Source: Amia ocellicauda
Taxonomy: Eukaryota; Chordata; Actinopteri; Amiiformes; Amiidae
Length of the DNA: 64,000 nucleotides
Reading direction: 5' to 3'
Assembly (NCBI RefSeq): GCF_036373705.1
Contig: NC_089851.1
Coordinates: 57,092,497 to 57,156,496 of the forward strand
Position 1 is the first letter of the stretch. Each line of letters opens with the position of its first letter. A model generated the notes under the pieces. It did not search any database. It had not been told where the DNA came from and was given only the letters and a program-made list of their open reading frames with translations. Both the position numbers and the translations under genes were made by a program. This document shows positions 7,265 to 63,586 of the stretch, piece after piece.

Positions 7265-7364
7265 CGTATGTTGCATTCAACGACAAAGAAAATCGTGTGC
7301 TGGAAATGATTTTTGGCAACTGTGAAGGAACTGCACGACTGCAGCAACCACAACACCTCTGTCT

Positions 7365-7438
7365 GTCTCTGTGGCGCAATCGGTCAGCGCGTTTGGCTGT
7401 TAACCAAAAGGATGGTGGTTCGAATCCACCCAGGGATG
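7365..7438 (+). tRNA. tRNA-Asn-GTT: tRNA-Asn(GTT), cassette 1
   Basis: This 74-nt gene folds as a full cloverleaf. The acceptor strands are GTCTCTG and CAGGGAT, the D arm is GCGC/GCGC, the anticodon stem TTTGG/CCAAA encloses loop CTGTTAA (anticodon GTT, reading AAC and AAU), and the T arm is GGTGG/CCACC. The internal Pol III promoter is intact: A box TGGCGCAATCGG and B box GGTTCGAATCC. There is no intron and no encoded CCA. Here the last acceptor pair is a G1-U72 wobble (GGGAT), shared only with cassette 19; other copies have C72. A T4 terminator at 7445-7448 lies 7 bp past the end. It faces tRNA-Thr(TGT) tail to tail across 164 bp. Confidence 0.97.
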
Positions 7439-7444
7439 GCCCAC

Positions 7445-7448
7445 TTTT
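7445..7448 (+). terminator. Pol III T4 terminator of tRNA-Asn (cassette 1; same place in all full cassettes)
   Basis: TTTT follows the tRNA-Asn 3' end after GCCCAC and is followed by a C-rich stretch. T4 is the minimal canonical Pol III terminator. The same tract is present at Asn end +7 to +10 in all 18 full cassettes. Confidence 0.85.
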
Positions 7449-7602
7449 CCCCCCGCCCCTTGTTATTGTTTCTACTTCTGGCGGACAGCTTGCCAGACTG
7501 TGGCTACAGTAACCTTAAGCTGCTTGCTGTGGATGGCCATCTTGCAAAAATGTATTGAGCGTTTAGAAACTTCCTTTCCATTGCCTAGGCCAACATAAAC
7601 CA

Positions 7603-7676
7603 AGGCACTGCTGGGAGTCGAACCCAGGGTTTCCTGTTTACAAGACAGGTGCTTTGACCAACTAAGCCACGGTGCC
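7603..7676 (-). tRNA. tRNA-Thr-TGT: tRNA-Thr(TGT), cassette 1
   Basis: Read on the minus strand this is a 74-nt tRNA. Acceptor strands are GGCACCG and CAGTGCC, the D arm is GCTT/AAGC (stem bases), the anticodon stem CCTGT/ACAGG encloses loop CTTGTAA (anticodon TGT, threonine ACA and by wobble ACG), and the T arm is CTGGG/CCCAG with loop TTCGACT. A box TGGCTTAGTTGG and B box GGTTCGACTCC match the Pol III consensus. Acceptor pair 6-67 is a C-A mismatch in every copy in the window. The gene differs from the neighbouring Thr(AGT) at 10 of 74 positions, including anticodon base 34, so the two are paralogues. There is no T4 immediately downstream; the first T-run on this strand is T5 at 7546-7550, 52 bp away. 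Confidence 0.95.
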
Positions 7677-7718
7677 AGGACTCTCCCATTCCCCAGTGCC
7701 TACACTCAGGCGTAAGGC

Positions 7719-7749
<31 letters not shown>

Positions 7750-7824
7750 CAAAACAAAACAAAACAAAACAAAACAAAACAAAACAAAACAAAACAAAAC
7801 AAAACAAAACAAAACAAAACAAAA
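7719..7824. repeat. (AAAAC)n microsatellite, cassette 1, about 21 units
   Basis: This is a 106-bp uninterrupted pentanucleotide run that begins with six A and ends AAAATCTGG. Read on the minus strand it is (GTTTT)n, a series of T4 tracts placed after tRNA-Thr(AGT) and before tRNA-Thr(TGT). Length varies from cassette to cassette, always by whole 5-bp units. Confidence 0.98.
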
Positions 7825-8110
7825 TCTGGATGCAGACTGCAACAAAGGAAGCACACAGAGGTGAAAACGTAAGGTTGACGGGAGCAACAAGCTCCCTGTT
7901 GCGACTGTCCAGGGGCGGCAATGGGAATTGGACGTTGGCCGTAGCGCGTGTCCTTTGGGTTCTGGTTCTTCTTTACAAACCGGCGTCTGTCCAGTTGGCT
8001 TTCCGGTTCATTACGTCCTCTGATGGCTTTACGATAAGCCTATCTTGCTAAAACTGATGGTCGACAAAGCGGAAGCACAAGCTTCGCAAGGAGCACAGAA
8101 AGCCCGCCTA
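7825..8110. other. Cassette spacer between (AAAAC)n and tRNA-Thr(AGT), no gene seen
   Basis: This 286-bp unique sequence is nearly the same in all 19 cassettes. It holds two short hairpins: GGGAGC/GCTCCC with loop AACAA (about 7879-7895) and GAAGC/GCTTC with loop ACAA (about 8071-8084). The second lies just downstream of tRNA-Thr(AGT) in its direction of transcription. AAAA at 8050-8053 gives that strand its first T4, 57 bp past the tRNA. A 73-codon open frame here is conserved only because the DNA is, and I do not call it a gene. Confidence 0.6.
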
Positions 8111-8184
8111 AGGCACCGCTGGGATTTGAACCCAGGACCTCCTGTTTACTAGACAGGCGCTTTAACCAACTAAGCCACGGCGCC
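8111..8184 (-). tRNA. tRNA-Thr-AGT: tRNA-Thr(AGT), cassette 1
   Basis: Read on the minus strand this 74-nt tRNA has acceptor strands GGCGCCG and CGGTGCC (G4-U69 wobble), anticodon stem CCTGT/ACAGG with loop CTAGTAA (anticodon AGT, A34 normally edited to inosine, threonine ACU/ACC/ACA), and T arm CTGGG/CCCAG with loop TTCAAAT. A box TGGCTTAGTTGG and B box GGTTCAAATCC are intact. From memory it is nearly the same as vertebrate nuclear tRNA-Thr-AGT. No T4 lies within 50 bp downstream; only an interrupted TTTCT is close. It is transcribed toward the (AAAAC)n array and the Thr(TGT) gene. The cassette ends about 22 bp beyond it, in CTG repeats, before the satellite resumes. Confidence 0.97.
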
Positions 8185-8206
8185 AAATCTGCCGCTGCTG
8201 CTGCTG

Positions 8207-9467
8207 ATAGTAGAATAACAGCAGATCACGGACCGCTGTCAATCAGGTTCTTGCCTTGCCGTCCATCCATCCATCCATCTATCTATGACTCTCAATATCT
8301 AACTCTCTTGCTTGCTATCGCTCCCCCAATGGTCAGTAAAATAGTAGCATAACAGCAGATCACGGACCACTGTCAATCAGGTGCTTGCCTTGCCATCCAT
8401 CCATCCATCTGTCTATCTATCTATCTATGACTCTTGACATCTAACTCTCTTGCTTGCTATCGCTCCCCCAATGGTCAGAAGCAAAGTAGCATAACAGCAG
8501 ATCACGGACCACTGTCAATCAGATGCTTGCCTTGCCGTCCATCCATCCATCCATCCATCTATCTATCTATGACTCTTGATATCTAACTCTCTTGCTTGCT
8601 ATCGCTCCCCCAATGGTCAGAAGCATAGTATCATAACAGCAGATCACGGACCACTGTCAATCAGATGCTTGCCTTGCCGTCCATCCATCCATCTATCTAT
8701 CTATCTATCTATGACTCTTGATATCTAACTCTCTTGCTTGCTATCGCTCCCCCAATGGTCAGTAGCATTGTAGCATAACAGCAGATCACGGACCACTGTC
8801 AATCAGATGCTTGCCTTGCCGTCCATCCATCCATCTATCTATCTATCTATCTATGACTCTGGATATCTAACTCTCTTGCTTGCTATCGCTCCCCCAATGT
8901 TCAGTAGCATTGTAGCATAACAGCAGATCACGGACCACTGTCAATCAGATGCTTGCCTTGCCGTCCATCCATACATCTATCTATCTATCTATCTATGACT
9001 CTTGATATCTAACTCTCTTGCTTGCTATCGCTCCCCCAATGGTCAGTAGCATTGTAGCATAACAGCAGATCACGGACCACTGTCAATCAGATGCTTGCCT
9101 TGCCGTCCATCCATCCATCTATCTATCTATCTATCAATGACTCTCGATATCTAACTCTCTTACTTGCTATCGCTCCCCCAATGGTCAGTAGCATAGTAGC
9201 ATAACAGCAGATCACGGACCACTGTCAATCAGATGCTTGCCTTGCCGTCCATCCATCCATCCATCTATCTATCTATGACTCTTTTTATCTAACTCTCTTG
9301 CTTGCTATCGCTCCCCCAATGGTCAGTAGCATAGTAGCATAACAGCAGATCACGGAACACTGTCAATCAGATGCTTGCCTTGCCGTCCATCCATCCATCT
9401 ATCTATCTATCTATCTATGACTCTCGATATCTAACTCTCTTGCTTGCTATCGCTCCCCCAATGGTCA
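8207..9467. repeat. Satellite block 2
   Basis: About 8.7 monomers. The first is a partial monomer that resumes at ATAGTAGAATAACAGCAG. Its length (1261 bp) equals that of block 3 and the two are almost the same; one visible difference is AGTAAAATAG near 8336 against AGTAGCATAG. The variant GACTCTTTTTATC near 9280 is shared with blocks 3, 12 and 14. No gene seen. Confidence 0.96.
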
Positions 9468-9555
9468 CGTATGTTGCATTCAACGACAGAGAAAATCGTG
9501 TGCTGGAAATGATTTTTGGCAACTGTGAAGGAACTGCACGACTGCAGCAACCACA

Positions 9556-9629
9556 ACACCTGTGGCGCAATCGGTCAGCGCGTTTGGCTGTTAACCAAAA
9601 GGATGGTGGTTCGAATCCACCCAGGGACG
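9556..9629 (+). pseudogene. tRNA-Asn(GTT) with broken acceptor stem, cassette 2
   Basis: The body from the D arm to the 3' end matches the intact gene, including anticodon GTT and both promoter boxes. A 12-bp deletion in the CTGT-rich leader joins CAACAC to CTGTGGCGC, so the 5' acceptor strand reads ACACCTG. Pairs 1-72, 2-71 and 3-70 are lost (A-C, C-A, A-G) and four pairs remain. It may still be transcribed, but correct RNase P and RNase Z processing and charging are doubtful. The T4 at 9636-9639 is kept. Confidence 0.8.
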
Positions 9630-9793
9630 GCCCACTTTTCCCCCCGCCCCTTGTTATTGTTTCTACTTCTGGCGGACAGCTTGCCAGACTGTGGCTACAG
9701 TAACCTTAAGCTGCTTGCTGTGGATGGCCATCTTGCAAAAATGTATTGAGCGTTTAGAAACTTCCTTTCCATTGCCTAGGCCAACATAAACCA

Positions 9794-9867
9794 AGGCACT
9801 GCTGGGAGTCGAACCCAGGGTTTCCTGTTTACAAGACAGGTGCTTTGACCAACTAAGCCACGGTGCC
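9794..9867 (-). tRNA. tRNA-Thr-TGT: tRNA-Thr(TGT), cassette 2
   Basis: Same sequence as the cassette 1 copy: loop CTTGTAA, intact boxes, C6-A67 mismatch. It lies 164 bp tail to tail from the broken tRNA-Asn. Confidence 0.95.
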
Positions 9868-9909
9868 AGGACTCTCCCATTCCCCAGTGCCTACACTCAG
9901 GCGTAAGGC

Positions 9910-9940
<31 letters not shown>

Positions 9941-10030
9941 CAAAACAAAACAAAACAAAACAAAACAAAACAAAACAAAACAAAACAAAACAAAACAAAA
10001 CAAAACAAAACAAAACAAAACAAAACAAAA
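9910..10030. repeat. (AAAAC)n, cassette 2, about 24 units
   Basis: 121 bp, uninterrupted. The host cassette spans 9468-10412. Confidence 0.98.
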
Positions 10031-10316
10031 TCTGGATGCAGACTGCAACAAAGGAAGCACACAGAGGTGAAAACGTAAGGTTGACGGGAGCAACAAGCTC
10101 CCTGTTGCGACTGTCCAGGGGCGGCAATGGGAATTGGACGTTGGCCGTAGCGCGTGTCCTTTGGGTTCTGGTTCTTCTTTACAAACCGGCGTCTGTCCAG
10201 TTGGCTTTCCGGTTCATTACGTCCTCTGATGGCTTTACGATAAGCCTATCTTGCTAAAACTGATGGTCGACAAAGCGGAAGCACAAGCTTCGCAAGGAGC
10301 ACAGAAAGCCCGCCTA

Positions 10317-10390
10317 AGGCACCGCTGGGATTTGAACCCAGGACCTCCTGTTTACTAGACAGGCGCTTTAACCAACTAAGCCACGGCGCC
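10317..10390 (-). tRNA. tRNA-Thr-AGT: tRNA-Thr(AGT), cassette 2
   Basis: Same as the cassette 1 copy, with loop CTAGTAA and complete stem pairing. Confidence 0.96.
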
Positions 10391-10412
10391 AAATCTGCCG
10401 CTGCTGCTGCTG

Positions 10413-11673
10413 ATAGTAGAATAACAGCAGATCACGGACCGCTGTCAATCAGGTTCTTGCCTTGCCGTCCATCCATCCATCCATCTATCTATGACTCTCA
10501 ATATCTAACTCTCTTGCTTGCTATCGCTCCCCCAATGGTCAGTAGCATAGTAGCATAACAGCAGATCACGGACCACTGTCAATCAGGTGCTTGCCTTGCC
10601 ATCCATCCATCCATCTGTCTATCTATCTATCTATGACTCTTGACATCTAACTCTCTTGCTTGCTATCGCTCCCCCAATGGTCAGAAGCAAAGTAGCATAA
10701 CAGCAGATCACGGACCACTGTCAATCAGATGCTTGCCTTGCCGTCCATCCATCCATCCATCCATCTATCTATCTATGACTCTTGATATCTAACTCTCTTG
10801 CTTGCTATCGCTCCCCCAATGGTCAGAAGCATAGTATCATAACAGCAGATCACGGACCACTGTCAATCAGATGCTTGCCTTGCCGTCCATCCATCCATCT
10901 ATCTATCTATCTATCTATGACTCTTGATATCTAACTCTCTTGCTTGCTATCGCTCCCCCAATGGTCAGTAGCATTGTAGCATAACAGCAGATCACGGACC
11001 ACTGTCAATCAGATGCTTGCCTTGCCGTCCATCCATCCATCTATCTATCTATCTATCTATGACTCTGGATATCTAACTCTCTTGCTTGCTATCGCTCCCC
11101 CAATGTTCAGTAGCATTGTAGCATAACAGCAGATCACGGACCACTGTCAATCAGATGCTTGCCTTGCCGTCCATCCATACATCTATCTATCTATCTATCT
11201 ATGACTCTTGATATCTAACTCTCTTGCTTGCTATCGCTCCCCCAATGGTCAGTAGCATTGTAGCATAACAGCAGATCACGGACCACTGTCAATCAGATGC
11301 TTGCCTTGCCGTCCATCCATCCATCTATCTATCTATCTATCAATGACTCTCGATATCTAACTCTCTTACTTGCTATCGCTCCCCCAATGGTCAGTAGCAT
11401 AGTAGCATAACAGCAGATCACGGACCACTGTCAATCAGATGCTTGCCTTGCCGTCCATCCATCCATCCATCTATCTATCTATGACTCTTTTTATCTAACT
11501 CTCTTGCTTGCTATCGCTCCCCCAATGGTCAGTAGCATAGTAGCATAACAGCAGATCACGGAACACTGTCAATCAGATGCTTGCCTTGCCGTCCATCCAT
11601 CCATCTATCTATCTATCTATCTATGACTCTCGATATCTAACTCTCTTGCTTGCTATCGCTCCCCCAATGGTCA
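10413..11673. repeat. Satellite block 3
   Basis: 1261 bp, about 8.7 monomers, almost the same as block 2. Cassette 2 plus this block is therefore a unit of about 2.2 kb repeated in tandem with cassette 1 plus block 2. Carries the CAATGTTCAG variant near 11102 as does block 2. No gene seen. Confidence 0.96.
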
Positions 11674-11761
11674 CGTATGTTGCATTCAACGACAGAGAAA
11701 ATCGTGTGCTGGAAATGATTTTTGGCAACTGTGAAGGAACTGCACGACTGCAGCAACCACA

Positions 11762-11835
11762 ACACCTGTGGCGCAATCGGTCAGCGCGTTTGGCTGTTAA
11801 CCAAAAGGATGGTGGTTCGAATCCACCCAGGGACG
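11762..11835 (+). pseudogene. tRNA-Asn(GTT) with broken acceptor stem, cassette 3
   Basis: It carries the same 12-bp leader deletion as cassette 2 (5' strand ACACCTG, three acceptor pairs lost) and the same GACAGAGAAAATC upstream variant. The two share the lesion by descent, so the damaged copy was itself amplified. Confidence 0.8.
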
Positions 11836-11999
11836 GCCCACTTTTCCCCCCGCCCCTTGTTATTGTTTCTACTTCTGGCGGACAGCTTGCCAGACTGTGG
11901 CTACAGTAACCTTAAGCTGCTTGCTGTGGATGGCCATCTTGCAAAAATGTATTGAGCGTTTAGAAACTTCCTTTCCATTGCCTAGGCCAACATAAACCA

Positions 12000-12073
12000 A
12001 GGCACTGCTGGGAGTCGAACCCAGGGTTTCCTGTTTACAAGACAGGTGCTTTGACCAACTAAGCCACGGTGCC
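12000..12073 (-). tRNA. tRNA-Thr-TGT: tRNA-Thr(TGT), cassette 3
   Basis: Same as the cassette 1 copy (loop CTTGTAA, C6-A67 mismatch). Confidence 0.95.
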
Positions 12074-12115
12074 AGGACTCTCCCATTCCCCAGTGCCTAC
12101 ACTCAGGCGTAAGGC

Positions 12116-12146
<31 letters not shown>

Positions 12147-12191
12147 CAAAACAAAACAAAACAAAACAAAACAAAACAAAACAAAACAAAA
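12116..12191. repeat. (AAAAC)n, cassette 3, about 15 units
   Basis: 76 bp, uninterrupted, 45 bp (nine units) shorter than in the otherwise near-identical cassette 2. The host cassette spans 11674-12573. Confidence 0.98.
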
Positions 12192-12477
12192 TCTGGATGC
12201 AGACTGCAACAAAGGAAGCACACAGAGGTGAAAACGTAAGGTTGACGGGAGCAACAAGCTCCCTGTTGCGACTGTCCAGGGGCGGCAATGGGAATTGGAC
12301 GTTGGCCGTAGCGCGTGTCCTTTGGGTTCTGGTTCTTCTTTACAAACCGGCGTCTGTCCAGTTGGCTTTCCGGTTCATTACGTCCTCTGATGGCTTTACG
12401 ATAAGCCTATCTTGCTAAAACTGATGGTCGACAAAGCGGAAGCACAAGCTTCGCAAGGAGCACAGAAAGCCCGCCTA

Positions 12478-12551
12478 AGGCACCGCTGGGATTTGAACCC
12501 AGGACCTCCTGTTTACTAGACAGGCGCTTTAACCAACTAAGCCACGGCGCC
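12478..12551 (-). tRNA. tRNA-Thr-AGT: tRNA-Thr(AGT), cassette 3
   Basis: Same as the cassette 1 copy. The right edge of the cassette reads GCTGTTGCTGCTG, a variant shared with cassette 15. Confidence 0.96.
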
Positions 12552-12573
12552 AAATCTGCCGCTGTTGCTGCTG

Positions 12574-13550
12574 ATAGTAGAATAACAGCAGATCACGGAC
12601 CGCTGTCAATCAGGTTCTTGCCTTGCCGTCCATCCATCCATCCATCTATCTATGACTCTCAATATCTAACTCTCTTGCTTGCTATCGCTCCCCCAATGGT
12701 CAGTAGCATAGTAGCATAACAGCAGATCACGGACCACTGTAAATCAGGTGCTTGCCTTGCCATCCATCCATCCATCTGTCTATCTATCTATCTATGACTC
12801 TTGATATCTAACTCTCTTGCTTGCTATCGCTCCCCCAATGGTCAGAAGCAAAGTAGCATAACAGCAGATCACGGACCACTGTCAATCAGATGCTTGCCTT
12901 GCCGTCCATCCATCCATCCATCTATCTATCTATGACTCTTGATATCTAACTCTCTTGCTTGCTATCGCTCCCCCAATGGTCAGAAGCATAGTATCATAAC
13001 AGCAGATCACGGACCACTGTCAATCAGATGCTTGCCTTGCCGTCCATCCATCCATCTATCTATCTATCTATCTATGACTCTTGATATCTAACTCTCTTGC
13101 TTGCTATCGCTCCCCCAATGGTCAGTAGCATTGTAGCATAACAGCAGATCACGGACCACTGTCAATCAGATGCTTGCCTTGCCGTCCATCCATCCATCTA
13201 TCTATCTATCTATCTATGACTCTTGATATCTAACTCTCTTGCTTGCTATCGCTCCCCCAATGGTCAGTAGCATTGTAGCATAACAGCAGATCACGGACCA
13301 CTGTCAATCAGATGCTTGCCTTGCCGTCCATCCATACATCTATCTATCTATCTATCTATGACTCTTGATATCTAACTCTCTTGCTTGCTATCGCTCCCCC
13401 AATGGTCAGTAGCATTGTAGCATAACAGCAGATCACGGACCACTGTCAATCAGATGCTTGCCTTGCCGTCCATCCATCCATCCATCTATCTATCTATCTA
13501 TGACTCTCGATATCTAACTCTCTTGCTTGCTATCGCTCCCCCAATGGTCA
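12574..13550. repeat. Satellite block 4
   Basis: 977 bp, about 6.7 monomers. It shares the CTGTAAATCAGG variant with block 16 (981 bp), its close duplicate some 37.1 kb away. No gene seen. Confidence 0.96.
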
Positions 13551-13650
13551 CGTATGTTGCATTCAACGACAAAGAAAATCGTGTGCTGGAAATGATTTTT
13601 GGCAACTGTGAAGGAACTGCATGACTGCAGCAACCACCACTCCTCTGTCT

Positions 13651-13724
13651 GTCTCTGTGGCGCAATCGGTCAGCGCGTTTGGCTGTTAACCAAAAGGATG
13701 GTGGTTCGAATCCACCCAGGGACG
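13651..13724 (+). tRNA. tRNA-Asn-GTT: tRNA-Asn(GTT), cassette 4
   Basis: Complete pairing with G1-C72. The leader has GCATGACTGCAG and CCACCACTCCTC variants shared with cassettes 15 and 16. T4 at 13731-13734. Confidence 0.96.
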
Positions 13725-13888
13725 GCCCACTTTTCCCCCCGCCCCTTGTTATTGTTTCTACTTCTGGCGGACAGCTTGCCAGACTGTGGCTACAGTAACC
13801 TTAAGCTGCTTGCTGTGGATGGCCATCTTGCAAAAATGTATTGAGCGTTTAGAAACTTCCTTTCCATTGCCTAGGCCAACATAAACCA

Positions 13889-13962
13889 AGGCACTGCTGG
13901 GAGTCGAACCCAGGGTTTCCTGTTTACAAGACAGGTGCTTTGACCAACTAAGCCACGGTGCC
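13889..13962 (-). tRNA. tRNA-Thr-TGT: tRNA-Thr(TGT), cassette 4
   Basis: Same as the cassette 1 copy (loop CTTGTAA, C6-A67 mismatch). Confidence 0.95.
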
Positions 13963-14004
13963 AGGACTCTCCCATTCCCCAGTGCCTACACTCAGGCGTA
14001 AGGC

Positions 14005-14035
<31 letters not shown>

Positions 14036-14115
14036 CAAAACAAAACAAAACAAAACAAAACAAAACAAAACAAAACAAAACAAAACAAAACAAAACAAAA
14101 CAAAACAAAACAAAA
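14005..14115. repeat. (AAAAC)n, cassette 4, about 22 units
   Basis: 111 bp, uninterrupted. The host cassette spans 13551-14497. Confidence 0.98.
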
Positions 14116-14401
14116 TCTGGATGCAGACTGCAACAAAGGAAGCACACAGAGGTGAAAACGTAAGGTTGACGGGAGCAACAAGCTCCCTGTTGCGACTGTC
14201 CAGGGGCGGCAATGGGAATTGGACGTTGGCCGTAGCGCGTGTCCTTTGGGTTCTGGTTCTTCTTTACAAACCGGCGTCTGTCCAGTTGGCTTTCCGGTTC
14301 ATTACGTCCTCTGATGGCTTTACGATAAGCCTATCTTGCTAAAACTGATGGTCGACAAAGCGGAAGCACAAGCTTCGCAAGGAGCACAGAAAGCCCGCCT
14401 A

Positions 14402-14475
14402 AGGCACCGCTGGGATTTGAACCCAGGACCTCCTGTTTACTAGACAGGCGCTTTAACCAACTAAGCCACGGCGCC
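14402..14475 (-). tRNA. tRNA-Thr-AGT: tRNA-Thr(AGT), cassette 4
   Basis: Same as the cassette 1 copy, complete pairing. Confidence 0.96.
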
Positions 14476-14497
14476 AAATCTGCCGCTGCTGCTGCTG

Positions 14498-16180
14498 ATA
14501 GTAGAATAACAGCAGATCACGGACCGCTGTCAATCAGGTTCTTGCCTTGCCGTCCATCCATCCATCCATCTATCTATGACTCTCAATATCTAACTCTCTT
14601 GCTTGCTATCGCTCCCCCAATGGTCAGTAGCATAGTAGCATAACAGCAGATCACGGACCACTGTCAATCAGGTGCTTGCCTTGCCATCCATCCATCCATC
14701 TGTCTATCTATCTATCTATGACTCTTGACATCTAACTCTCTTGCTTGCTATCGCTCCCCCAATGGTCAGAAGCAAAGTAGCATAACAGCAGATCACGGAC
14801 CACTGTCAATCAGATGCTTGCCTTGCCGTCCATCCATCCATCCATCCATCTATCTATCTATGACTCTTGATATCTAACTCTCTTGCTTGCTATCGCTCCC
14901 CCAATGGTCAGAAGCATAGTATCATAACAGCAGATCACGGACCACTGTCAATCAGATGCTTGCCTTGCCGTCCATCCATCCATCTATCTATCTATCTATC
15001 TATGACTCTTGATATCTAACTCTCTTGCTTGCTATCGCTCCCCCAATGGTCAGTAGCATTGTAGCATAACAGCAGATCACGGACCACTGTCAATCAGATG
15101 CTTGCCTTGCCGTCCATCCATCCATCTATCTATCTATCTATCTATGACTCTTGATATCTAACTCTCTTGCTTGCTATCGCTCCCCCAATGGTCAGTAGCA
15201 TTGTAGCATAACAGCAGATCACGGACCACTGTCAATCAGATGCTTGCCTTGCCGTCCATCCATCCATCCATCTATCTATCTATCAATGACTCTCGATATC
15301 TAACTCTCTTACTTGCTATCGCTCCCCCAATGGTCAGTAGCATAGTAGCATAACAGCAGATCACGGACCACTGTCAATCAGATGCTTGCCTTGCCGTCCA
15401 TCCATCCTTCCATCTATCTATCTATGACTCTTGTTATCTAACTCTCTTGCTTGCTATCGCTCCCCCAATGGTCAGTAGCATAGTAGCATAACAGCAGATC
15501 ACGGAACACTGTCAATCAGATGCTTGCCTTGCCGTCCATCCATCCATCTATCTATCTATCTATCTATGACTCTTGATATCTAACTCTCTTGCTTGCTATC
15601 GCTCCCCCAATGGTCAGTAGCATTGTAGCATAACAGCAGATCACGGACCACTGTCAATCAGATGCTTGCCTTGCCATCCATCCATACATCTATCTATCTA
15701 TCTATCTATGACTCTTGATATCTAACTATCTTGCTTGCTATCGCTCCCCCAATGGTCAGTAGCATTGTAGCATAACAGCAGATCACGGACCACTGTCAAT
15801 CAGATGCTTGCCTTGCCGTCCATCCATCCATCCATCTATCTATCTATCAATGACTCTCGATATCTAACTCTCTTACTTGCTATCGCTCCCCCAATGGTCA
15901 GTAGCATAGTAGCATAACAGCAGATCACGGACCACTGTCAATCAGATGCTTGCCTTGCCGTCCATCCATCCTTCCATCTATCTATCTATGACTCTTGTTA
16001 TCTAACTCTCTTGCTTGCTATCGCTCCCCCAATGGTCAGTAGCATAGTAGCATAACAGCAGATCACGGAACACTGTCAATCAGATGCTTGCCTTGCCGTC
16101 CATCCATCCATCTATCTATCTATCTATCTATGACTCTCGATATCTAACTCTCTTGCTTGCTATCGCTCCCCCAATGGTCA
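14498..16180. repeat. Satellite block 5
   Basis: 1683 bp, about 11.6 monomers. The CCATCCTTCC variant occurs twice (near 15406 and 15966), suggesting an internal multi-monomer duplication. The TAACTATCTTGC variant at 15723 sits 558 bp before tRNA-Asn, exactly as in block 17. No gene seen. Confidence 0.96.
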
Positions 16181-16280
16181 CGTATGTTGCATTCAACGAC
16201 AAAGAAAATCGTGTGCTGGAAATGATTTTTGGCAACTGTGAAGGAACTGCACGACTGCAGCAACCACAACACCTCTGTCT

Positions 16281-16354
16281 GTCGCTGTGGCGCAATCGGT
16301 CAGCGCGTTTGGCTGTTAACCAAAAGGATGGTGGTTCGAATCCACCCAGGGACG
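16281..16354 (+). tRNA. tRNA-Asn-GTT: tRNA-Asn(GTT), cassette 5, acceptor mismatch
   Basis: The 5' acceptor strand reads GTCGCTG, so the usual U4-G69 wobble becomes a G4-G69 clash. The other arms and both boxes are intact. Shared only with cassette 17. T4 at 16361-16364. It may be less stable, but is probably still recognisable as a tRNA. Confidence 0.92.
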
Positions 16355-16518
16355 GCCCACTTTTCCCCCCGCCCCTTGTTATTGTTTCTACTTCTGGCGG
16401 ACAGCTTGCCAGACTGTGGCTACAGTAACCTTAAGCTGCTTGCTGTGGATGGCCATCTTGCAAAAATGTATTGAGCGTTTAGAAACTTCCTTTCCATTGC
16501 CTAGGCCAACATAAACCA

Positions 16519-16592
16519 AGGCACTGCTGGGAGTCGAACCCAGGGTTTCCTGTTTACAAGACAGGTGCTTTGACCAACTAAGCCACGGTGCC
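16519..16592 (-). tRNA. tRNA-Thr-TGT: tRNA-Thr(TGT), cassette 5
   Basis: Gene sequence as in cassette 1. Its 5' flank reads ACTGTCCC in place of ACTCTCCC. Confidence 0.95.
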
Positions 16593-16634
16593 AGGACTGT
16601 CCCATTCCCCAGTGCCTACACTCAGGCGTAAGGC

Positions 16635-16665
16635 AAAAAACAAAACCAAACAAAACAAAACAAAA
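16635..16665. repeat. (AAAAC)n, cassette 5, about 6 units, interrupted
   Basis: Only 31 bp, with one AAAACC interruption, shared with cassette 18. The host cassette spans 16181-17047. The short interrupted form may be ancestral, or a contraction. Confidence 0.95.
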
Positions 16666-16951
16666 TCTGGATGCAGGCTGCAACAAAGGAAGCACACAGA
16701 GGTGAAAACGTAAGGTTGACGGGAGCAACAAGCTCCCTGTTGCGACTGTCCAGGGGCGGCAATGGGAATTGGACGTTGGCCGTAGCGCTTGTCCTTTGGG
16801 TTCTGGTTCTTCTTTACAAACCGGCGTCTGTCCAGTTGGCTTTCCGGTTCATTACATCCTCTGATGGCTTTACGATAAGCCTATCTTGCTAAAACTGATG
16901 GTCGACAAAGCGGAAGCACAAGCTTCGCAAGGAGCACAGAAAGCCCGCCTA

Positions 16952-17025: not shown

Positions 17026-17047
17026 AAATCTGCCACTGTTGCTGCTG

Positions 17048-53482: not shown

Positions 53483-53513
<31 letters not shown>

Positions 53514-53943: not shown

Positions 53944-53965
53944 AAATCTGCCGCTGCTGCTGCTG

Positions 53966-56145
53966 ATAGTAGAATAACAGCAGATCACGGACCGCTGTCA
54001 ATCAGGTTCTTGCCTTGCCGTCCATCCATCCATCCATCTATCTATGACTCTCAATATCTAACTCTCTTGCTTGCTATCGCTCCCCCAATGGTCAGTAGCA
54101 TAGTAGCATAACAGCAGATCACGGACCACTGTCAATCAGGTGCTTGCCTTGCCATCCATCCATCCATCTGTCTATCTATCTATCTATGACTCTTGACATC
54201 TAACTCTCTTGCTTGCTATCGCTCCCCCAATGGTCAGAAGCAAAGTAGCATAACAGCAGATCACGGACCACTGTCAATCAGATGCTTGCCTTGCCGTCCA
54301 TCCATCCATCCATCCATCTATCTATCTATGACTCTTGATATCTAACTCTCTTGCTTGCTATCGCTCCCCCAATGGTCAGAAGCATAGTATCATAACAGCA
54401 GATCACGGACCACTGTCAATCAGATGCTTGCCTTGCCGTCCATCCATCCATCCATCTATCTATCTATCTATGACTCTTGATATCTAACTCTCTTGCTTGC
54501 TATCGCTCCCCCAATGGTCAGTAGCATTGTAGCATAACAGCAGATCACGGACCACTGTCAATCAGATGCTTGCCTTGCCGTCCATCCATCCATCTATCTA
54601 TCTATCTATCTATGACTCTTGATATCTAACTCTCTTGCTTGCTATCGCTCCCCCAATGGTCAGTAGCATTGTAGCATAACAGCAGATCACGGACCACTGT
54701 CAATCAGATGCTTGCCTTGCCGTCCATCCATCCATCTATCTATCTATCTATCTATGACTCTTGATATCTAACTCTCTTGCTTGCTATCGCTCCCCCAATG
54801 GTCAGTAGCATTGTAGCATAACAGCAGATCACGGACCACTGTCAATCAGATGCTTGCCTTGCCGTCCATCCATCCATCTATCTATCTATCTATCTATGAC
54901 TCTTGATATCTAACTCTCTTGCTTGCTATCGCTCCCCCAATGGTCAGTAGCATTGTAGCATAACAGCAGATCACGGACCACTGTCAATCAGATGCTTGCC
55001 TTGCCGTCCATCCATCCATCTATCTATCTATCTATCAATGACTCTCGATATCTAACTCTCTTGCTTGCTATCGCTCCCCCAATGGTCAGTAGCATAGTAG
55101 CATAACAGCAGATCACGGACCACTGTCAATCAGGTGCTTGCCTTGCCGTCCATCCATCCATCTGTCTATCTATCTATCTATGACTCTTGACATCTAACTC
55201 TCTTGCTTGCTATCGCTCCCCCAATGGTCAGAAGCAAAGTAGCATAACAGCAGATCACGGACCACTGTCAATCAGATGCTTGCCTTGCCGTCCATCCATC
55301 CATCTATCTATCTATCTATCTATGACTCTTGATATCTAACTCTCTTGCTTGCTATCGCTCCCCCAATGGTCAGTAGCATTGTAGCATAACAGCAGATCAC
55401 GGACCACTGTCAATCAGATGCTTGCCTTGCCGTCCATCCATACATCTATCTATCTATCTATCTATGACTCTTGATATCTAACTCTCTTGCTTGCTATCGC
55501 TCCCCCAATGGTCAGTAGCATTGTAGCATAACAGCAGATCACGGACCACTGTCAATCAGATGCTTGCCTTGCCGTCCATCCATCCATCTATCTATCTATC
55601 TATCAATGACTCTCGATATCTAACTCTCTTACTTGCTATCGCTCCCCCAATGGTCAGTAGCATAGTATCATAACAGCAGATCACGGACCACTGTCAATCA
55701 GATGCTTGCCTTGCCGTCCATCCATCCATCCATCTATCTATCTATGACTCTTGTTATCTAACTCTCTTGCTTGCTATCGCTCCCCCAATGGTCAGTAGCA
55801 AAGTAGCATAACAGCAGATCACGGACCACTGTCAATCAGATGCTTGCCTTGCCGTCCATCCATCCATCCATCTATCTATCTATGACTCTTGACATCTAAC
55901 TCTCTTGCTTGCAATCGCTCCCCCAATGGTCAGAAGCAAAGTAGCATAACAGCAGATCACGGACCACTGTCAATCAGATGCTTGCCTTGCCGTCCATCCA
56001 TCCATCCATCTATCTATCTATGACTCTTGATATCTAACTCTCTTGCTTGCTATCGCTCCCCCAATGGTCAGTAGCATAGTATCATAACAGCAGATCACGG
56101 ACCACTGTCAATCAGATGCTTGCCTTGCCGTCCATCCATCCATCC

Positions 56146-56203
<58 letters not shown>

Positions 56204-56252
56204 GACTCTCGATATCTAACTCTCTTGCTTGCTATCGCTCCCCCAATGGTCA
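53966..56252. repeat. Satellite block 18
   Basis: 2287 bp, about 15.7 monomers, matching the first 2.2 kb of block 13. The last tail (about 56145-56203) is a long CTAT run directly before cassette 18. No gene seen. Confidence 0.96.
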
Positions 56253-56352
56253 CGTATGTTGCATTCAACGACAAAGAAAATCGTGTGCTGGAAATGATTT
56301 TTGGCAACTGTGAAGGAACTGCACGACTGCAGCAACCACAACACCTCTGTCT

Positions 56353-56426
56353 GTCTCTGTGGCGCAATCGGTCAGCGCGTTTGGCTGTTAACCAAAAGGA
56401 TGGTGGTTCGAATCCACCCAGGGACG
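56353..56426 (+). tRNA. tRNA-Asn-GTT: tRNA-Asn(GTT), cassette 18
   Basis: Complete pairing, G1-C72, unlike the mismatched copy in its 40-kb duplicate, cassette 5. T4 at 56433-56436. Confidence 0.97.
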
Positions 56427-56590
56427 GCCCACTTTTCCCCCCGCCCCTTGTTATTGTTTCTACTTCTGGCGGACAGCTTGCCAGACTGTGGCTACAGTAA
56501 CCTTAAGCTGCTTGCTGTGGATGGCCATCTTGCAAAAATGTATTGAGCGTTTAGAAACTTCCTTTCCATTGCCTAGGCCAACATAAACCA

Positions 56591-56664
56591 AGGCACTGCT
56601 GGGAGTCGAACCCAGGGTTTCCTGTTTACAAGACAGGCGCTTTGACCAACTAAGCCACGGTGCC
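56591..56664 (-). tRNA. tRNA-Thr-TGT: tRNA-Thr(TGT), cassette 18, A26G variant
   Basis: Position 26 is G, as in Thr(AGT), where other Thr(TGT) copies have A. The C6-A67 mismatch remains. This is either an ancestral base or conversion from the sister gene. Confidence 0.95.
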
Positions 56665-56706
56665 AGGACTCTCCCATTCCCCAGTGCCTACACTCAGGCG
56701 TAAGGC

Positions 56707-56737
56707 AAAAAACAAAACCAAACAAAACAAAACAAAA
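56707..56737. repeat. (AAAAC)n, cassette 18, about 6 units, interrupted
   Basis: 31 bp with the same AAAACC interruption as cassette 5. The host cassette spans 56253-57119. Confidence 0.95.
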
Positions 56738-57023
56738 TCTGGATGCAGGCTGCAACAAAGGAAGCACACAGAGGTGAAAACGTAAGGTTGACGGGAGCAA
56801 CAAGCTCCCTGTTGCGACTGTCCAGGGGCGGCAATGGGAATTGGACGTTGGCCGTAGCGCTTGTCCTTTGGGTTCTGGTTCTTCTTTACAAACCGGCGTC
56901 TGTCCAGTTGGCTTTCCGGTTCATTACATCCTCTGATGGCTTTACGATAAGCCTATCTTGCTAAAACTGATGGTCGACAAAGCGGAAGCACAAGCTTCGC
57001 AAGGAGCACAGAAAGCCCGCCTA

Positions 57024-57097
57024 AGGCACCGCTGGGATTTGAACCCAGGACCTCCTGTTTACTAGACAGGCACTTTAACCAACTAAGCCACGGCGCC
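57024..57097 (-). tRNA. tRNA-Thr-AGT: tRNA-Thr(AGT), cassette 18, D-stem wobble
   Basis: C25 is U, giving a G10-U25 wobble. The A box is intact, unlike its duplicate in cassette 5. Confidence 0.95.
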
Positions 57098-57119
57098 AAA
57101 TCTGCCACTGTTGCTGCTG

Positions 57120-57764
57120 ATAGTAGCATAACAGCAGATCACGGACCACTGTCAATCAGATGCTTGCTTTGCCGTCCATCCATCCATCTATCTATCTATC
57201 TATCTATGACTCTCGATATCTATCTCTCTTGCTTGCTATCGCTCCCCCAATGGTCAGTAGCATTGTAGCATAACATCAGATCACGGACCACTGTCAATCC
57301 GATGCGTGCCTTGCCGTCCATCCATCCATCTATCTATCTATCTATCTATGACTCTCGATATCTAACTCTCTTGCTTGCTATCGCTCCCCCAATGGTCAGT
57401 AGCATAGTAGCATAACATCAGATCACGGACCACTGTCAATCAGATGCTTGCCTTGCCGTCCATCCATCCATCGAACTATCTATCTATCTGTCTATGACTC
57501 TCGATATCTAACTCTCTTGCTTGCTATCGCTCCCCCAATGGTCAGTAGCATAGTAGCATAACAGCAGATCACAGACCACTGTCAATCAGATGCTTGCCTT
57601 GCCGTCCATCCATCCATCTATCTATCTATCTATCTATGACTCTCGATATCTAACTCTCTTGCTTGCTATCGCTCCCCCAATGGTCAGTAGCATAGTAGCA
57701 TAACAGCAGATCACGGACCACTGTCAATCAGATGCTTGCCTTGCCGTCCATCCATCCATCTATA

Positions 57765-57795
<31 letters not shown>

Positions 57796-60700
57796 GACTC
57801 TCGATATCTAACTCTCTTGCTTGCTATCGCTCCCCCAATTGTCAGTAGCATAGTAGCATAACAGCAGATCACGGACCACTGTCAATCAGATGCTTGCCTT
57901 GCCATCCATCCATCCATCCATCTATCTATCTATCTGTCTATGACTCTCGATATCTAACTCTCTTGCTTGCTATCGCTCCCCCAATGGTCAGTAGCATAGT
58001 AGCATAACACCAGATCACGGACCACTGTCAATCAGATGCTTGCCTTGCCGTCCATCCATCCATCCATCTATCTATCTATCTATCTATGACTCTCGATATC
58101 TAACTCACTTGCTTGCTATCGCTCCCCCAATGGTCAGTAGCATAGTAGCATAACAGCAGATCACGGACCACTGTCAATCAGATGCTTGCCTTGTCGTCCA
58201 TCCATCCATCTATCTATCTATCTATCTATGACTCTCGATATCTAACTCTCTTGCTTGCTATCGCTCCCCCAATGGTCAGTAGCATAGTAGCATAACAGCA
58301 GATCACGGACCACTGTCAATCAGATGCTTGCCTTGCCGTCCATCCATCCATCCATCCATCTATCTATCAATCTATCTATCTATCTATCTATCTATGACTC
58401 TCGATATCTAACTCTCTTGCTTCCTTTCGCTCCCCCAATGGTCAGTAGCATAGTAGCATAACAGCAGATCACGGACCACTGTCAATCAGATGCTTGCCTT
58501 GCCGTCCATCCATCCATCTATCTATCTATCTATCTATGACTCTCGATATCAATCTCTCTTGCTTGCTATCGCTCCCCCAATGGTCAGTAGCATTGTAGCA
58601 TAACATCAGATCACGGACCACTGTCAATCCGATGCGTGCCTTGCCGTCCATCCATCCATCCATCTATCTATCTATCTATCTGTCTATGACTCTCGATATC
58701 TAACTCTCTTGCTTGCTATCGCTCCCCCAATGGTCAGTAGCATAGTAGCATAACAGCAGATCACAGACCACTGTCAATCAGATGCTTGCCTTGCCGTCCA
58801 TCCATCCATCTATCTATCTATCTATCTATGACTCTCGATATCTAACTCTCTTGCTTCCTTTCGCTCCCCCAATGGTCAGTAGCATAGTAGCATAACAGCA
58901 GATCACAGACCACTGTCAATCAGATGCTTGCCTTGCCGTCCATCCATCCATCTATCTATCTATCTATCTATGACTCTCGATATCTAACTCTCTTGCTTGC
59001 TATCGCTCCCCCAATGGTCAGTAGCATAGTAGCATAACAGCAGATCACGGACCACTGTCAATCAGATGCTTGCCTTGCCGTCCATCCATCCATCCATCTA
59101 TCTATCTATCTATCTATGACTCTCGATATCTAACTCTCTTGCTTGCTATCGCTCCCCCAATGGTCAGTAGCATAGTAGCATAACAGCAGATCACGGACCA
59201 CTGTCAATCAGATGCTTGCCTTGCCGTCCATCCATCCATCTATATATCTATCTATCTATCTATCTATCTATGACTCTCGATATCTAACTCTCTTGCTTGC
59301 TATCGCTCCCCCAATGGTCAGTAGCATAGTAGCATAACAGCAGATCACGGACCACTGTCAATCAGATGCTTGCCTTGCCATCCATCCATCCATCCATCTA
59401 TCTATCTATCTGTCTATGACTCTCGATATCTAACTCTCTTGCTTGCTATCGCTCCCCCAATGGTCAGTAGCATAGTAGCATAACACCAGATCACGGACCA
59501 CTGTCAATCAGATGCTTGCCTTGCCGTCCATCCATCCATCCATCTATCTATCTATCTATCTATGACTCTCGATATCTAACTCACTTGCTTGCTATCGCTC
59601 CCCCAATGGTCAGTAGCATTGTAGCATAACAGCAGTTTACAGACCACTGTCAATCAGATGCTTGCCTTGCCATCCATCCATCCATCCATCTATCTATCTA
59701 ACTATCTATGACTCTCGATATCTAACTCTCTTGCTTGCTATCGCTCCCCCAATGGTCAGTAGCATAGTAGCATAACAGCAGATCACGGACCACTGTCAAT
59801 CAGATGCTTGCCTTGCCGTCCATCCATCCATCCATCTATCTATCTATCTATCTATCTATGACTCTCGATATCTAACTCTCTTGCTTGCTATCGCTACCCC
59901 AATGGTCAGTAGCATAGTAGCATAACAGCAGATCACGGACCACTGTCAATCAGATGCTTGCCTTGCCGTCCATCCATCCATCCATCTATCTATCTATCTA
60001 TCTATCTATGACTCTCGATATCTAACTCTCTTGCTTGCTATCGCTCCCCCAATGGTCAGTAGCATAGTAGCATAACAGCAGATCACGGACCACTGTCAAT
60101 CAGATGCTTGCCTTGCCGTCCATCCATCCATCTATATATCTATCTATCTATCTATCTATCTATGACTCTCGATATCTAACTCTCTTGCTTGCTATCGCTC
60201 CCCCAATGGTCAGTAGCATAGTAGCATAACAGCAGATCACGGACCACTGTCAATCAGATGCTTGCCTTGCCATCCATCCATCCATCCATCTATCTATCTA
60301 TCTGTCTATGTCTCTCGATATCTAACTCTCTTGCTTGCTATCGCTCCCCCAATGGTCAGTAGCATAGTAGCATAACACCAGATCACGGACCACTGTCAAT
60401 CAGATGCTTGCCTTGCCGTCCATCCATCCATCTATCTATCTATCTATCAATGACTCTCGATATCTAACTCTCTTACTTGCTATCGCTCCCCCAATGGTCA
60501 GTAGCATAGTAGCATAACAGCAGATCACGGACCACTGTCAATCAGATGCTTGCCTTGCCGTCCATCCATCCATCCATCTATCTATCTATGACTCTTGTTA
60601 TCTAACTCTCTTGCTTGCTATCGCTCCCCCAATGGTCAGTAGCATAGTAGCATAACAGCAGATCATGGACCACTGTCAATCAGATGCTTGCCTTGCCGTC

Positions 60701-62642
60701 CATCCATCCATCTATCTATCTATCTATCAATGACTCTTGATATCTAACTCTCTTGCTTGCTATCGCTCCCCCAATGGTCAGTAGCATAGTAGCATAACAG
60801 CAGATCACGGACCACTGTCAATCAGATGCTTGCCTTGCCGTCCATCCATCCATCCATCTATCTATCTATCTATCAATGACTCTCGATATCTAACTCTCTT
60901 ACTTGCTATCGCTCCCCCAATGGTCAGTAGCATAGTAGCATAACAGCAGATCACGGACCACTGTCAATCAGATGCTTGCCTTGCCGTCCATCCATCCATC
61001 TATCTATCTATCTATCAATGACTCTTGATATCTAACTCTCTTGCTTGCTATCGCTCCCCCAATGGTCAGTAGCATAGTAGCATAACAGCAGATCACGGAC
61101 CACTGTCAATCAGATGCTTGCCTTTCCGTCCATCCATCCATCCATCTATCTATCTATCTATCAATGACTCTCGATATCTAACTCTCTTGCTTGCTATCGC
61201 TCCCCCAATGGTCAGTAGCATAGTAGCATAACAGCAGATCACGGACCACTGTCAATCAAATGCTTGCCTTGCCGTCCATCCATCCATCCATCTATCTATC
61301 TATCTATCAATGACTCTTGATATCTAACTCTCTTGCTTGCTATCGCTCCCCCAATGGTCAGTAGCATAGTAGCATAACACCAGATCACGGACCACTGTCA
61401 ATCAGATGCTTGCCTTGCCGTCCATCCATCCATCTATCTATCTATCTATCAATGACTCTCGATATCTAACTCTCTTACTTGCTATCGCTCCCCCAATGGT
61501 CAGTAGCATAGTAGCATAACAGCAGATCACGGACCACTGTCAATCAGATGCTTGCCTTGCCGTCCATCCATCCATCCATCTATCTATCTATGACTCTTGT
61601 TATCTAACTCTCTTGCTTGCTATCGCTCCCCCAATGGTCAGTAGCATAGTAGCATAACAGCAGATCATGGACCACTGTCAATCAGATGCTTGCCTTGCCG
61701 TCCATCCATCCATCTATCTATCTATCTATCAATGACTCTTGATATCTAACTCTCTTGCTTGCTATCGCTCCCCCAATGGTCAGTAGCATAGTAGCATAAC
61801 AGCAGATCACGGACCACTGTCAATCAGATGCTTGCCTTGCCGTCCATCCATCCATCCATCTATCTATCTATCTATCAATGACTCTCGATATCTAACTCTC
61901 TTACTTGCTATCGCTCCCCCAATGGTCAGTAGCATAGTAGCATAACAGCAGATCACGGACCACTGTCAATCAGATGCTTGCCTTGCCGTCCATCCATCCA
62001 TCTATCTATCTATCTATCAATGACTCTTGATATCTAACTCTCTTGCTTGCTATCGCTCCCCCAATGGTCAGTAGCATAGTAGCATAACAGCAGATCACGG
62101 ACCACTGTCAATCAGATGCTTGCCTTTCCGTCCATCCATCCATCCATCTATCTATCTATCTATCAATGACTCTCGATATCTAACTCTCTTGCTTGCTATC
62201 GCTCCCCCAATGGTCAGTAGCATAGTAGCATAACAGCAGATCACGGACCACTGTCAATCAAATGCTTGCCTTGCCGTCCATCCATCCATCCATCTATCTA
62301 TCTATCTATCAATGACTCTTGATATCTAACTCTCTTGCTTGCTATCACTCCACCAATGGTCAGTAGCATTGTAGCATAACAGCAGATCACGGACCACTGT
62401 CAATCAGATGCTTGCCTTGCCGTCCATCCATCCATCTATCTATCTATCTATGACTCTTGATATCTAACTCTCTTACTTGCTTTCGCTCACCCAATGGTCA
62501 GTAGCATAGTAGCATAACAGCAGATCACGGACCACTGTCAATCAGATGCTTGCCTTGTCGTCCATCCATCCATCTATCTATCTATCTATCTATGACTCTC
62601 GATATCTAACTCTCTTGCTTGCTATCGCTCCCCCAATGGTCA
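57120..62642. repeat. Satellite block 19, about 38 monomers without cassette
   Basis: Its first 4.7 kb duplicates block 6. Within 60420-62300 a set of monomers (with GATCATGG, TTTCCGTCC and TCAAATGC variants) appears in tandem, for example GCCTTTCCGTCC near 61131 and again near 62122. The last monomers have private changes (CACTCCACCAATGG, GCTTTCGCTCACCC). No gene seen. Confidence 0.96.
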
Positions 62643-62742
62643 CGTATGTTGCATTCAACGACAAAGAAAATCGTGTGCTGGAAATGATTTTTGGCAACTG
62701 TGAAGGAACTGCACGACTGCAGCAACCACAACACCTCTGTCT

Positions 62743-62816
62743 GTCTCTGTGGCGCAATCGGTCAGCGCGTTTGGCTGTTAACCAAAAGGATGGTGGTTCG
62801 AATCCACCCAGGGATG
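62743..62816 (+). tRNA. tRNA-Asn-GTT: tRNA-Asn(GTT), cassette 19
   Basis: G1-U72 wobble as in cassette 1; otherwise complete. T4 at 62823-62826. Confidence 0.96.
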
Positions 62817-62980
62817 GCCCACTTTTCCCCCCGCCCCTTGTTATTGTTTCTACTTCTGGCGGACAGCTTGCCAGACTGTGGCTACAGTAACCTTAAGCTG
62901 CTTGCTGTGGACGGCCATCTTGCAAAAATGTATTGAGCGTTTAGAAACTTCCTTTCCATTGCCTAGGCCAACATAAACCA

Positions 62981-63054
62981 AGGCACTGCTGGGAGTTGAA
63001 CCCAGAGTTTCCTGTTTACAAGACAGGTGCTTTGACCAACTAAGCCACGGTGCC
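62981..63054 (-). tRNA. tRNA-Thr-TGT: tRNA-Thr(TGT), cassette 19, T-arm variant
   Basis: B box reads GGTTCAACTCC (G57 to A, still a purine) and the last variable-loop base is T in place of C. Stems are unaffected. The most diverged Thr(TGT) copy. Confidence 0.94.
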
Positions 63055-63096
63055 AGGACTCTCCTATTCCCCAGTGCCTACACTCAGGCGTAAGGC

Positions 63097-63127
<31 letters not shown>

Positions 63128-63207
63128 CAAAACAAAACAAAACAAAACAAAACAAAACAAAACAAAACAAAACAAAACAAAACAAAACAAAACAAAACAA
63201 AACAAAA
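63097..63207. repeat. (AAAAC)n, cassette 19, about 22 units
   Basis: 111 bp, uninterrupted. The host cassette spans 62643-63586; its spacer lacks 3 bp (CAGGGGCAATGG) present in the other 18. Confidence 0.98.
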
Positions 63208-63490
63208 TCTGGATGCAGACTGCAACAAAGGAAGCACACAGAGGTGAAAACGTAAGGTTGACGGGAGCAACAAGCTCCCTGTTGCGACTGTCCAGGGGCA
63301 ATGGGAATTGGACGTTGGCCGTAGCGCGTGTCCTTTGGGTTCTGGTTCTTCTTTACAAACCGGCGTCTGTCCAGTTGGCTTTCCGGTTCATTACGTCCTC
63401 TGATGGCTTTACGATAAGCCTATCTTGCTAAAACTGATGGTCGACAAAGCGGAAGCACAAGCTTCGCAAGGAGCACAGAAAGCCCGCCTA

Positions 63491-63564
63491 AGGCACCGCT
63501 GGGATTTGAACCCAGGACTTCCTGTTTACTAGACAGGCGCTTTAACCAACTAAGCCACGGTGCC
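63491..63564 (-). tRNA. tRNA-Thr-AGT: tRNA-Thr(AGT), cassette 19
   Basis: G4 is A, converting the usual G4-U69 wobble to a Watson-Crick A-U pair, and one variable-loop base is changed (AAGTC). Fully paired. Confidence 0.95.
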
Positions 63565-63586
63565 AAATCTGCCGCTGCTGCTGCTG

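Follow-up and report, generated by a model that had tools for sequence, protein, structure and literature searches.

The window analysed here, a 64,000-nucleotide stretch of Amia ocellicauda contig NC_089851.1 (C2:57092497-57156496; C2 is 63.57 Mb long, in an assembly of 988 Mb and 385 contigs), carries a tandem satellite into which a cassette of three transfer RNA (tRNA) genes is built. The repeat is a higher-order unit composed of the cassette and a variable number of satellite monomers. ARAGORN identified 55 tRNA genes between 7364 and 63564 (18 Asn-GTT on the plus strand, 18 Thr-TGT and 19 Thr-AGT on the minus strand), and all 55 exceeded the threshold of 29 for Rfam model RF00005, at 59.4-73.1 bits. 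The genes follow the fixed order Asn-GTT(+), Thr-TGT(-), (AAAAC)n, Thr-AGT(-) in 19 cassettes, 18 with all three genes and the 19th partial; lying in a repeated head-to-tail unit, they form a tandem tRNA gene array. These calls confirmed the first-pass annotation, which had described 19 cassettes (18 complete) in this order with 55 tRNA loci. The word "complete" holds in that all three genes were called in 18 cassettes, but the Asn genes at 9556 and 11762 lack the start of the acceptor strand (59.4 bits, model positions 4-67).

The satellite monomer comprises a core of about 110 bp and a (CATC)n(TATC)n tail. Cores with at most four mismatches were found 326 times on the plus strand of the window and never on the minus strand, and Tandem Repeats Finder called a single array at 1-62642. 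A 145-bp satellite had been proposed for 7265-63586; a tandem satellite is present there, but it fills the whole 64-kb window, and its length is a mixture of 142 bp (158 of 306 plain monomers), 146 bp (49/306) and 138 bp (41/306). A head-to-tail array of such short, nearly uniform monomers, present in very many copies, is satellite DNA. Among the 306 plain monomers in the window, 111 distinct sequences were counted, and identical ordered runs of monomer types reappear between cassettes. Adjacent cassettes are separated by 6 to 51 plain-monomer intervals, with 6-11 in the denser stretches. The features of the window are listed below; all cassette end coordinates are approximate.

1..64000, plus strand: satellite array of 326 monomers, mode 142 bp, extending past both ends of the window
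7265..8205: cassette 1, with Asn-GTT 7364-7441(+), Thr-TGT 7603-7676(-), (AAAAC)n 7721-7824 and Thr-AGT 8111-8184(-)
9468..10411: cassette 2, Asn without acceptor strand start
11674..12572: cassette 3, Asn without acceptor strand start
13551..14496: cassette 4
16110..22554, plus strand: duplicated segment, first copy (cassette 5 and monomers), 99.0% identical to the second copy over 6,469 aligned positions
16181..17046: cassette 5, short (AAAAC)n
24543..25508: cassette 6
26621..27566: cassette 7, the alignment reference
28695..29620: cassette 8
31017..31967: cassette 9
33364..34294: cassette 10
35407..36367: cassette 11
37487..38442: cassette 12
45026..45477: partial cassette, limited to (AAAAC)n and Thr-AGT
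46598..47573: cassette 13
48836..49706: cassette 14, short (AAAAC)n
50689..51624: cassette 15
53029..53964: cassette 16
56182..62642, plus strand: duplicated segment, second copy, matching 16110-22554
56253..57118: cassette 17, short (AAAAC)n
62643..63585: cassette 18

The cassette is about 0.95 kb long and lies at one position of the 142-bp monomer, beginning after ...CCCCAATGGTCA and ending before ...ATAACAGCAGATCACGG of the monomer. In the reference copy, about 100 bp precede Asn-GTT(+), which is followed by 164 bp, Thr-TGT(-) and (AAAAC)n, and then by about 285 bp, Thr-AGT(-) and a short GCTGCTG tract. The copy number of (AAAAC)n ranges from 5.8 to 27.8 across the cassettes of the window. 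A tRNA-derived short interspersed element (SINE) has a single tRNA-like head and is spread by retrotransposition. Such an origin was rejected, since the cassette holds three genes, on both strands, and recurs in tandem at a fixed monomer position.

The extent of the unit was evaluated by pattern matching across the assembly. The satellite core, with at most two mismatches, gave 19,140 matches, a 32-nt pattern spanning the satellite-cassette junction gave 635 and a cassette interior pattern gave 625; the reversed control of each gave 0. Chance is therefore excluded as the source of the junctions, and the agreement between 635 junctions and 625 interiors indicated that cassette and satellite travel together, bearing out the earlier proposal of a co-amplified hybrid unit. 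That proposal would have suffered had the two occurred mostly apart; this is not the case for the cassette, but most of the satellite is without cassette, at about 30 monomers per cassette junction genome-wide. The matches listed for core, junction and interior lie without exception on C2, starting at 51.07 Mb for the interior and at 51.33 Mb for the other two, so that the tRNA arrays listed are concentrated on one chromosome-arm segment, C2 beyond 51 Mb. Higher-order units lie in blocks of both orientations from about 51.3 to 60.9 Mb of C2. A similarity search (40 scored of 773 candidates) returned 67 matches, every one of them in the 53.5-58.6 Mb interval of C2. Twenty samples of 800 bp at chosen points of C2 (51.0-59.5 Mb) contained the satellite in six cases, a second tandem tRNA family in five (scored where ARAGORN called its Pro-like gene) and neither in nine. 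Eight further C2 samples, two of which (56.85 and 58.50 Mb) were deliberately placed on known matches, contained the satellite at 53.40, 55.50, 56.85, 57.50 and 58.50 Mb, the second family at 54.00 Mb, neither at 60.00 Mb and an N stretch at 54.63 Mb.

Two truncated subtypes of the unit were also found on C2. At 57.50 Mb, units carry Asn and Thr-CGT and lack Thr-AGT, with one whole copy and parts of two in 3 kb. At 60.77-60.93 Mb, a recurrent unit consists of Asn, Thr-TGT and about two monomers, spaced at 1.02-1.07 kb in locus L060 and at 1.31 kb in locus L061; Rfam scores were 52.2 bits for Thr in all three complete L060 copies and 60.5-72 bits for Asn in four copies. Because both truncated subtypes recur, deletions between cassette and satellite yield new units that recur in tandem.

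Variation was then compared between the tRNA genes and the spacers of the cassette. The stitched regions contained 58 cassette starts, from which 56 cassettes were extracted, and one truncated cassette was omitted from the tests on 55. Changes per site, obtained by Fitch counting on a tree built from the same data, were 0.243 for tRNA and 0.171 for spacer in 56 cassettes (ratio 1.42), 0.212 and 0.143 in 55 cassettes (ratio 1.48), and 0.149 and 0.088 in 32 main-array cassettes (ratio 1.69). In none of these runs were the tRNA genes more conserved than the spacers (permutation p 0.94-0.98), the pattern expected if the array were kept for its single genes. In addition, pair-breaking variants were not depleted among the variant tRNA alleles (11 of 36, against 12.3 +/- 2.7 expected for the same mutation classes). 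CpG transitions were in excess both in the tRNA genes (13 alleles at 26 positions versus 10 at 196 non-CpG positions; Fisher p 1.8e-8) and in the spacers (13 at 54 versus 22 at 561; Fisher p 1.5e-6). Since the non-CpG rates of tRNA and spacer did not differ detectably (p 0.32), the somewhat higher variation of the tRNA genes is mainly CpG decay. Given the excess of CpG transitions, the arrays are probably CpG-methylated; the same excess is only an indirect hint of the heterochromatin suggested by the first-pass annotation. Copies with switched anticodons were also present: two Asn bodies with CTT in locus L020 (51.9 bits each) and one Thr-TGT body with TCT in locus L018 (69.2 bits). Nine of ten cassettes from C2:53.5 Mb were identical in the tree columns, with the (AAAAC)n tract left out.

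The array Asn gene differs from canonical vertebrate Asn at several positions, including a pair of the anticodon stem. This pair is T-A in the commonest array copies and C-G in others, and a T-G intermediate is present. The canonical Asn core gave 19 exact matches, five on C20 and 14 on C26, and 158 matches with at most one mismatch, most of those listed belonging to the 60.8-Mb subtype. The array-type core, in a pattern that allows both stem types and C at the first anticodon position, gave 448 exact matches. Because the structure is intact and the T-A anticodon stem of Asn stays paired, the founders were probably functional tRNA isodecoders. A canonical Asn and Thr-CGT pair at C26 3.98-4.12 Mb has cassette-like order and orientation, with a CATC/TATC tract nearby. 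It was rejected as the cassette parent, as its inter-gene spacer aligned no better than shuffled sequences (102 of 500 reached the score). The stretch upstream of the pair did score above shuffles (0 of 500 reached it), a similarity that we would put down to a shared CATC microsatellite. A C20 copy was also rejected, the match being confined to the tRNA genes.

Taken together, we favour the view, at a probability of roughly 0.68, that the array is a young, recombining, tRNA-bearing satellite, probably CpG-methylated, whose single genes are drifting and which was founded by working isodecoders. The array would have grown by tandem duplication and deletion, as suggested by the likeness or identity of neighbouring cassettes, the variation in monomer number, the kilobase-scale duplications and the two truncated subtypes; duplication in tandem, deletion and inversion have all left traces in the sequence. 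In the germ line, the arrays would be heterochromatic and CpG-methylated; individually, most copies may be dispensable, and homogenisation would keep many of them intact. Any expression might be limited to oocytes and early embryos, a low-confidence suggestion made by analogy with zebrafish repeat-encoded tRNAs. Several points weigh against this view. The 56 cassettes are a biased sample of about 630, coming from few regions and mostly picked by similarity to one window cassette, and the extraction patterns demanded both cassette ends. The commonest Asn sequence occurs in 38 of 55 copies, the structural soundness of the genes (55 of 55 pass Rfam) could also be explained by array-wide selection, and homogenisation obscures selection tests on single copies. 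Furthermore, a run of four T lies 8 nt downstream of Asn in 55 of 56 cassettes; for the Thr genes, the nearest in downstream scans is at least 53 nt away, so that transcript ends are uncertain.

One alternative, which we regard as possible and hold with little confidence, is a maternal tRNA bank, in which the arrays supply oocytes and early embryos with Asn and Thr tRNAs, are silent in the soma like oocyte-type 5S genes, and are selected for total output. The distinct array-type Asn (448 exact core matches, against 19 of the canonical type on C20 and C26) and the tRNA structure kept in 55 of 55 window genes fit this explanation. Isodecoders of the zebrafish egg and early embryo are encoded in repetitive regions and later-rising ones are scattered, with Thr-AGT, Thr-TGT and Thr-CGT among the switching clusters (PMC11417395), and maternal tRNAs on chromosome 4R have been proposed (PMC11075544). 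On the other hand, the tRNA genes are not conserved above the spacers and anticodon-switched copies exist. A simple transfer from zebrafish is also hampered by the finding that, in the embryo, tRNA levels do not follow the number of tRNA genes (PMC11574265). Moreover, none of the 47 5S genes scored (of 47,274 loose candidates) lies on C2; they are on C8, which has the best-scoring ones, and on small contigs, and there is thus no sign of a joint tRNA/5S block of the zebrafish type. As a separate observation, 5S ribosomal RNA genes occur in quantity at C8 7.38-9.81 Mb and on small contigs, several of them about 2.36 kb apart.

The direction of the union is a further question, as the junctions fit two origins equally: the cassette was inserted into a monomer, or the monomer was left by deletion of a tRNA unit. 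In the second case, which is no less doubtful than the maternal bank, the 142-bp monomer would have arisen by internal deletion from a larger tRNA repeat unit, losing the genes and outgrowing its parent. At the proximal edge of the arrays, C2:51.057-51.069 Mb, the left arm of the unit is joined to intron sequence from a DUF6729 gene fragment. The genome contains exactly five such fusions, of which four stand in tandem at a spacing of 1,399 bp. Cassettes lie behind two of the five, those within the sequence stretch fetched. At the fifth (C2:51.068-51.069 Mb), a single split monomer flanks the cassette, with a partial monomer on each side, and the cassette is 95.5% identical to a window copy in ungapped columns. 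The second fusion cassette is 91.6% identical in the ungapped columns of a 451-position alignment, a figure used because the gapped identity of 80% is lowered largely by (AAAAC)n gaps. Such DUF6729-fused cassettes with half-monomer arms speak for a satellite born from a tRNA repeat, as do the low divergence of the sampled monomers (mean 1.3% from their consensus, n=1,172) and the cassette-to-satellite deletions that made the truncated subtypes recurrent units. However, homogenisation makes monomers look young at any age, the monomer sample was restricted to near matches (largest difference 12.8%), the lone copies could be escapes copied out of the satellite, and both directions predict identical junctions. 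It is likewise improbable, if conceivable, that a gene-free remnant outgrew its tRNA parent about 30 to 1, with the parent still inside as the higher-order unit and possibly also stocking Asn and Thr tRNA genes for the oocyte. The idea that the left arm is an original exon of the gene was rejected. A DUF6729 copy on C6 shares the intron (one difference in 105 positions) and continues into an exon 2 of its own; at that place the C2 copy carries the tRNA unit.

Some tRNA genes act as insulators, and the first-pass annotation had raised a boundary function; on this reading, dense binding of RNA polymerase III factors in the satellite would mark domain borders. Of 56 scans per gene, simple box A-like and box B-like motifs were jointly present in 48 for Asn and in 53 each for Thr-TGT and Thr-AGT (one of the 56 cassettes lacks Thr-AGT, so its Thr-AGT scan landed on another Thr gene). 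Among the matches listed, however, cassettes are scattered through long blocks and not placed at borders, and both the CpG decay and the absent constraint speak against constantly occupied sites, which makes a boundary role very improbable. The suggested dosage of Thr and Asn tRNAs fared no better, and the sequence holds nothing that indicates either role; simple dosage is disfavoured because variation at tRNA sites equals or exceeds that of spacers, structure-breaking variants are undepleted and the genome has canonical Asn genes in other places (19 exact matches). Inflation of copy number or order by mis-assembly receives the least credence of all: such arrays are hard to assemble, but the window contains no N, copies vary in (AAAAC)n length and monomer number, and separate regions bear their own variants.

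The tRNA-bearing satellite was compared with known tRNA arrays. In Xenopus laevis tDNA repeats and Entamoeba tRNA arrays, multi-gene tRNA units stand in tandem, the Entamoeba spacers containing short tandem repeats. In those arrays it is the tRNA unit as such that repeats, whereas the Amia array has about 30 monomers per cassette junction. In the available portion of PMC2888827, which mentions Entamoeba tRNA arrays, 87% of stickleback and 65% of zebrafish tDNAs are in clusters. These teleost clusters are likewise tandem, one of them combining Thr-AGT/TGT with Arg-TCT, but Danio pairs are nearly all parallel, in contrast to the opposed Asn and Thr genes of Amia, and this portion mentions no satellite carrier for them (PMC2888827). 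The earlier comparison with zebrafish chromosome 4 was apt in kind. Region-2 of zebrafish Chr4R resembles the C2 segment in holding very many tRNA genes within repetitive DNA on one chromosome-arm segment and, in the accessible parts of the sources, in having a satellite (MOSAT-2) largely confined to the region (PMC11075544, PMC11417395, PMC11574265). Heterochromatin is reported there by the same parts of these sources and would only be expected for the Amia array. In Amia, by contrast, the satellite monomer itself houses the tRNA cassette, and none of the 47 scored 5S genes lies on C2. The Arabidopsis SYY cluster (tRNA-Ser/Tyr/Tyr), as far as the available text goes, is also a tandem three-gene unit with intact and pseudogene copies alongside separate dispersed genes, and lies in constitutive heterochromatin with high DNA methylation, a state that Amia may share (PMC12308677). 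It comprises tens of genes, root-cap cell expression has been shown for it, and no satellite is mentioned in that text (PMC12308677).

Fish are thus already known to have tRNA genes clustered in tandem, and Arabidopsis to have a three-gene tRNA unit that is methylated and heterochromatic. A tRNA cassette fixed in a satellite higher-order unit did not turn up in searches of the open-access literature, where most subscription journals are missing. The Amia unit joins tRNA gene arrays and satellites, which are usually treated apart, in one amplifying unit. Several hundred similar, sequence-tagged copies provide a test bed for silent baggage versus stage-specific supply by repeat-encoded tRNA genes. 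Because the full cassette, two truncated subtypes and the gene-free monomer coexist, relatives offer a test of how a satellite family is born. Drifting satellite copies, some of them anticodon-switched, can also inflate the raw number of tRNA genes counted in long-read fish genomes.

The second tandem tRNA family of C2 has units of about 550-590 bp with a Pro-AGG-like gene, for example at positions 1-3000 of locus L031 (54.00 Mb). Its spacer pattern gave 2,164 matches genome-wide, those listed lying on C2 beyond 51 Mb. Only two of five tRNA copies in L031 passed Rfam and three fell below threshold, so the units cannot be counted as genes without a scan. The three below threshold carry a variant that ARAGORN labelled Leu-GAG; this label was rejected because, by eye, the gene has a Pro-AGG body with G replacing T before the anticodon. 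More tandem tRNA arrays were seen at C27 4.25-4.55 Mb, C5 51.7-52.4 Mb and C188 (63 scored of 56,076 loose candidates).

Near the proximal edge, the left flank of locus L058 (about 7950-8990; C2:51.07 Mb) contains a B-type DNA polymerase-like sequence recognised by eye and a packaging-ATPase-like piece with weak Pfam matches, which we presume may belong to a Maverick/Polinton-like element. Another DUF6729-like fragment occurs at 11 places on C2 between 52.78 and 60.70 Mb with 44% identity to the query, and at a twelfth with 45%; it perhaps belongs to a large duplicated block. Elsewhere in the assembly, contig C308 (17.1 kb) is mitochondrial, with COI open under the vertebrate code.

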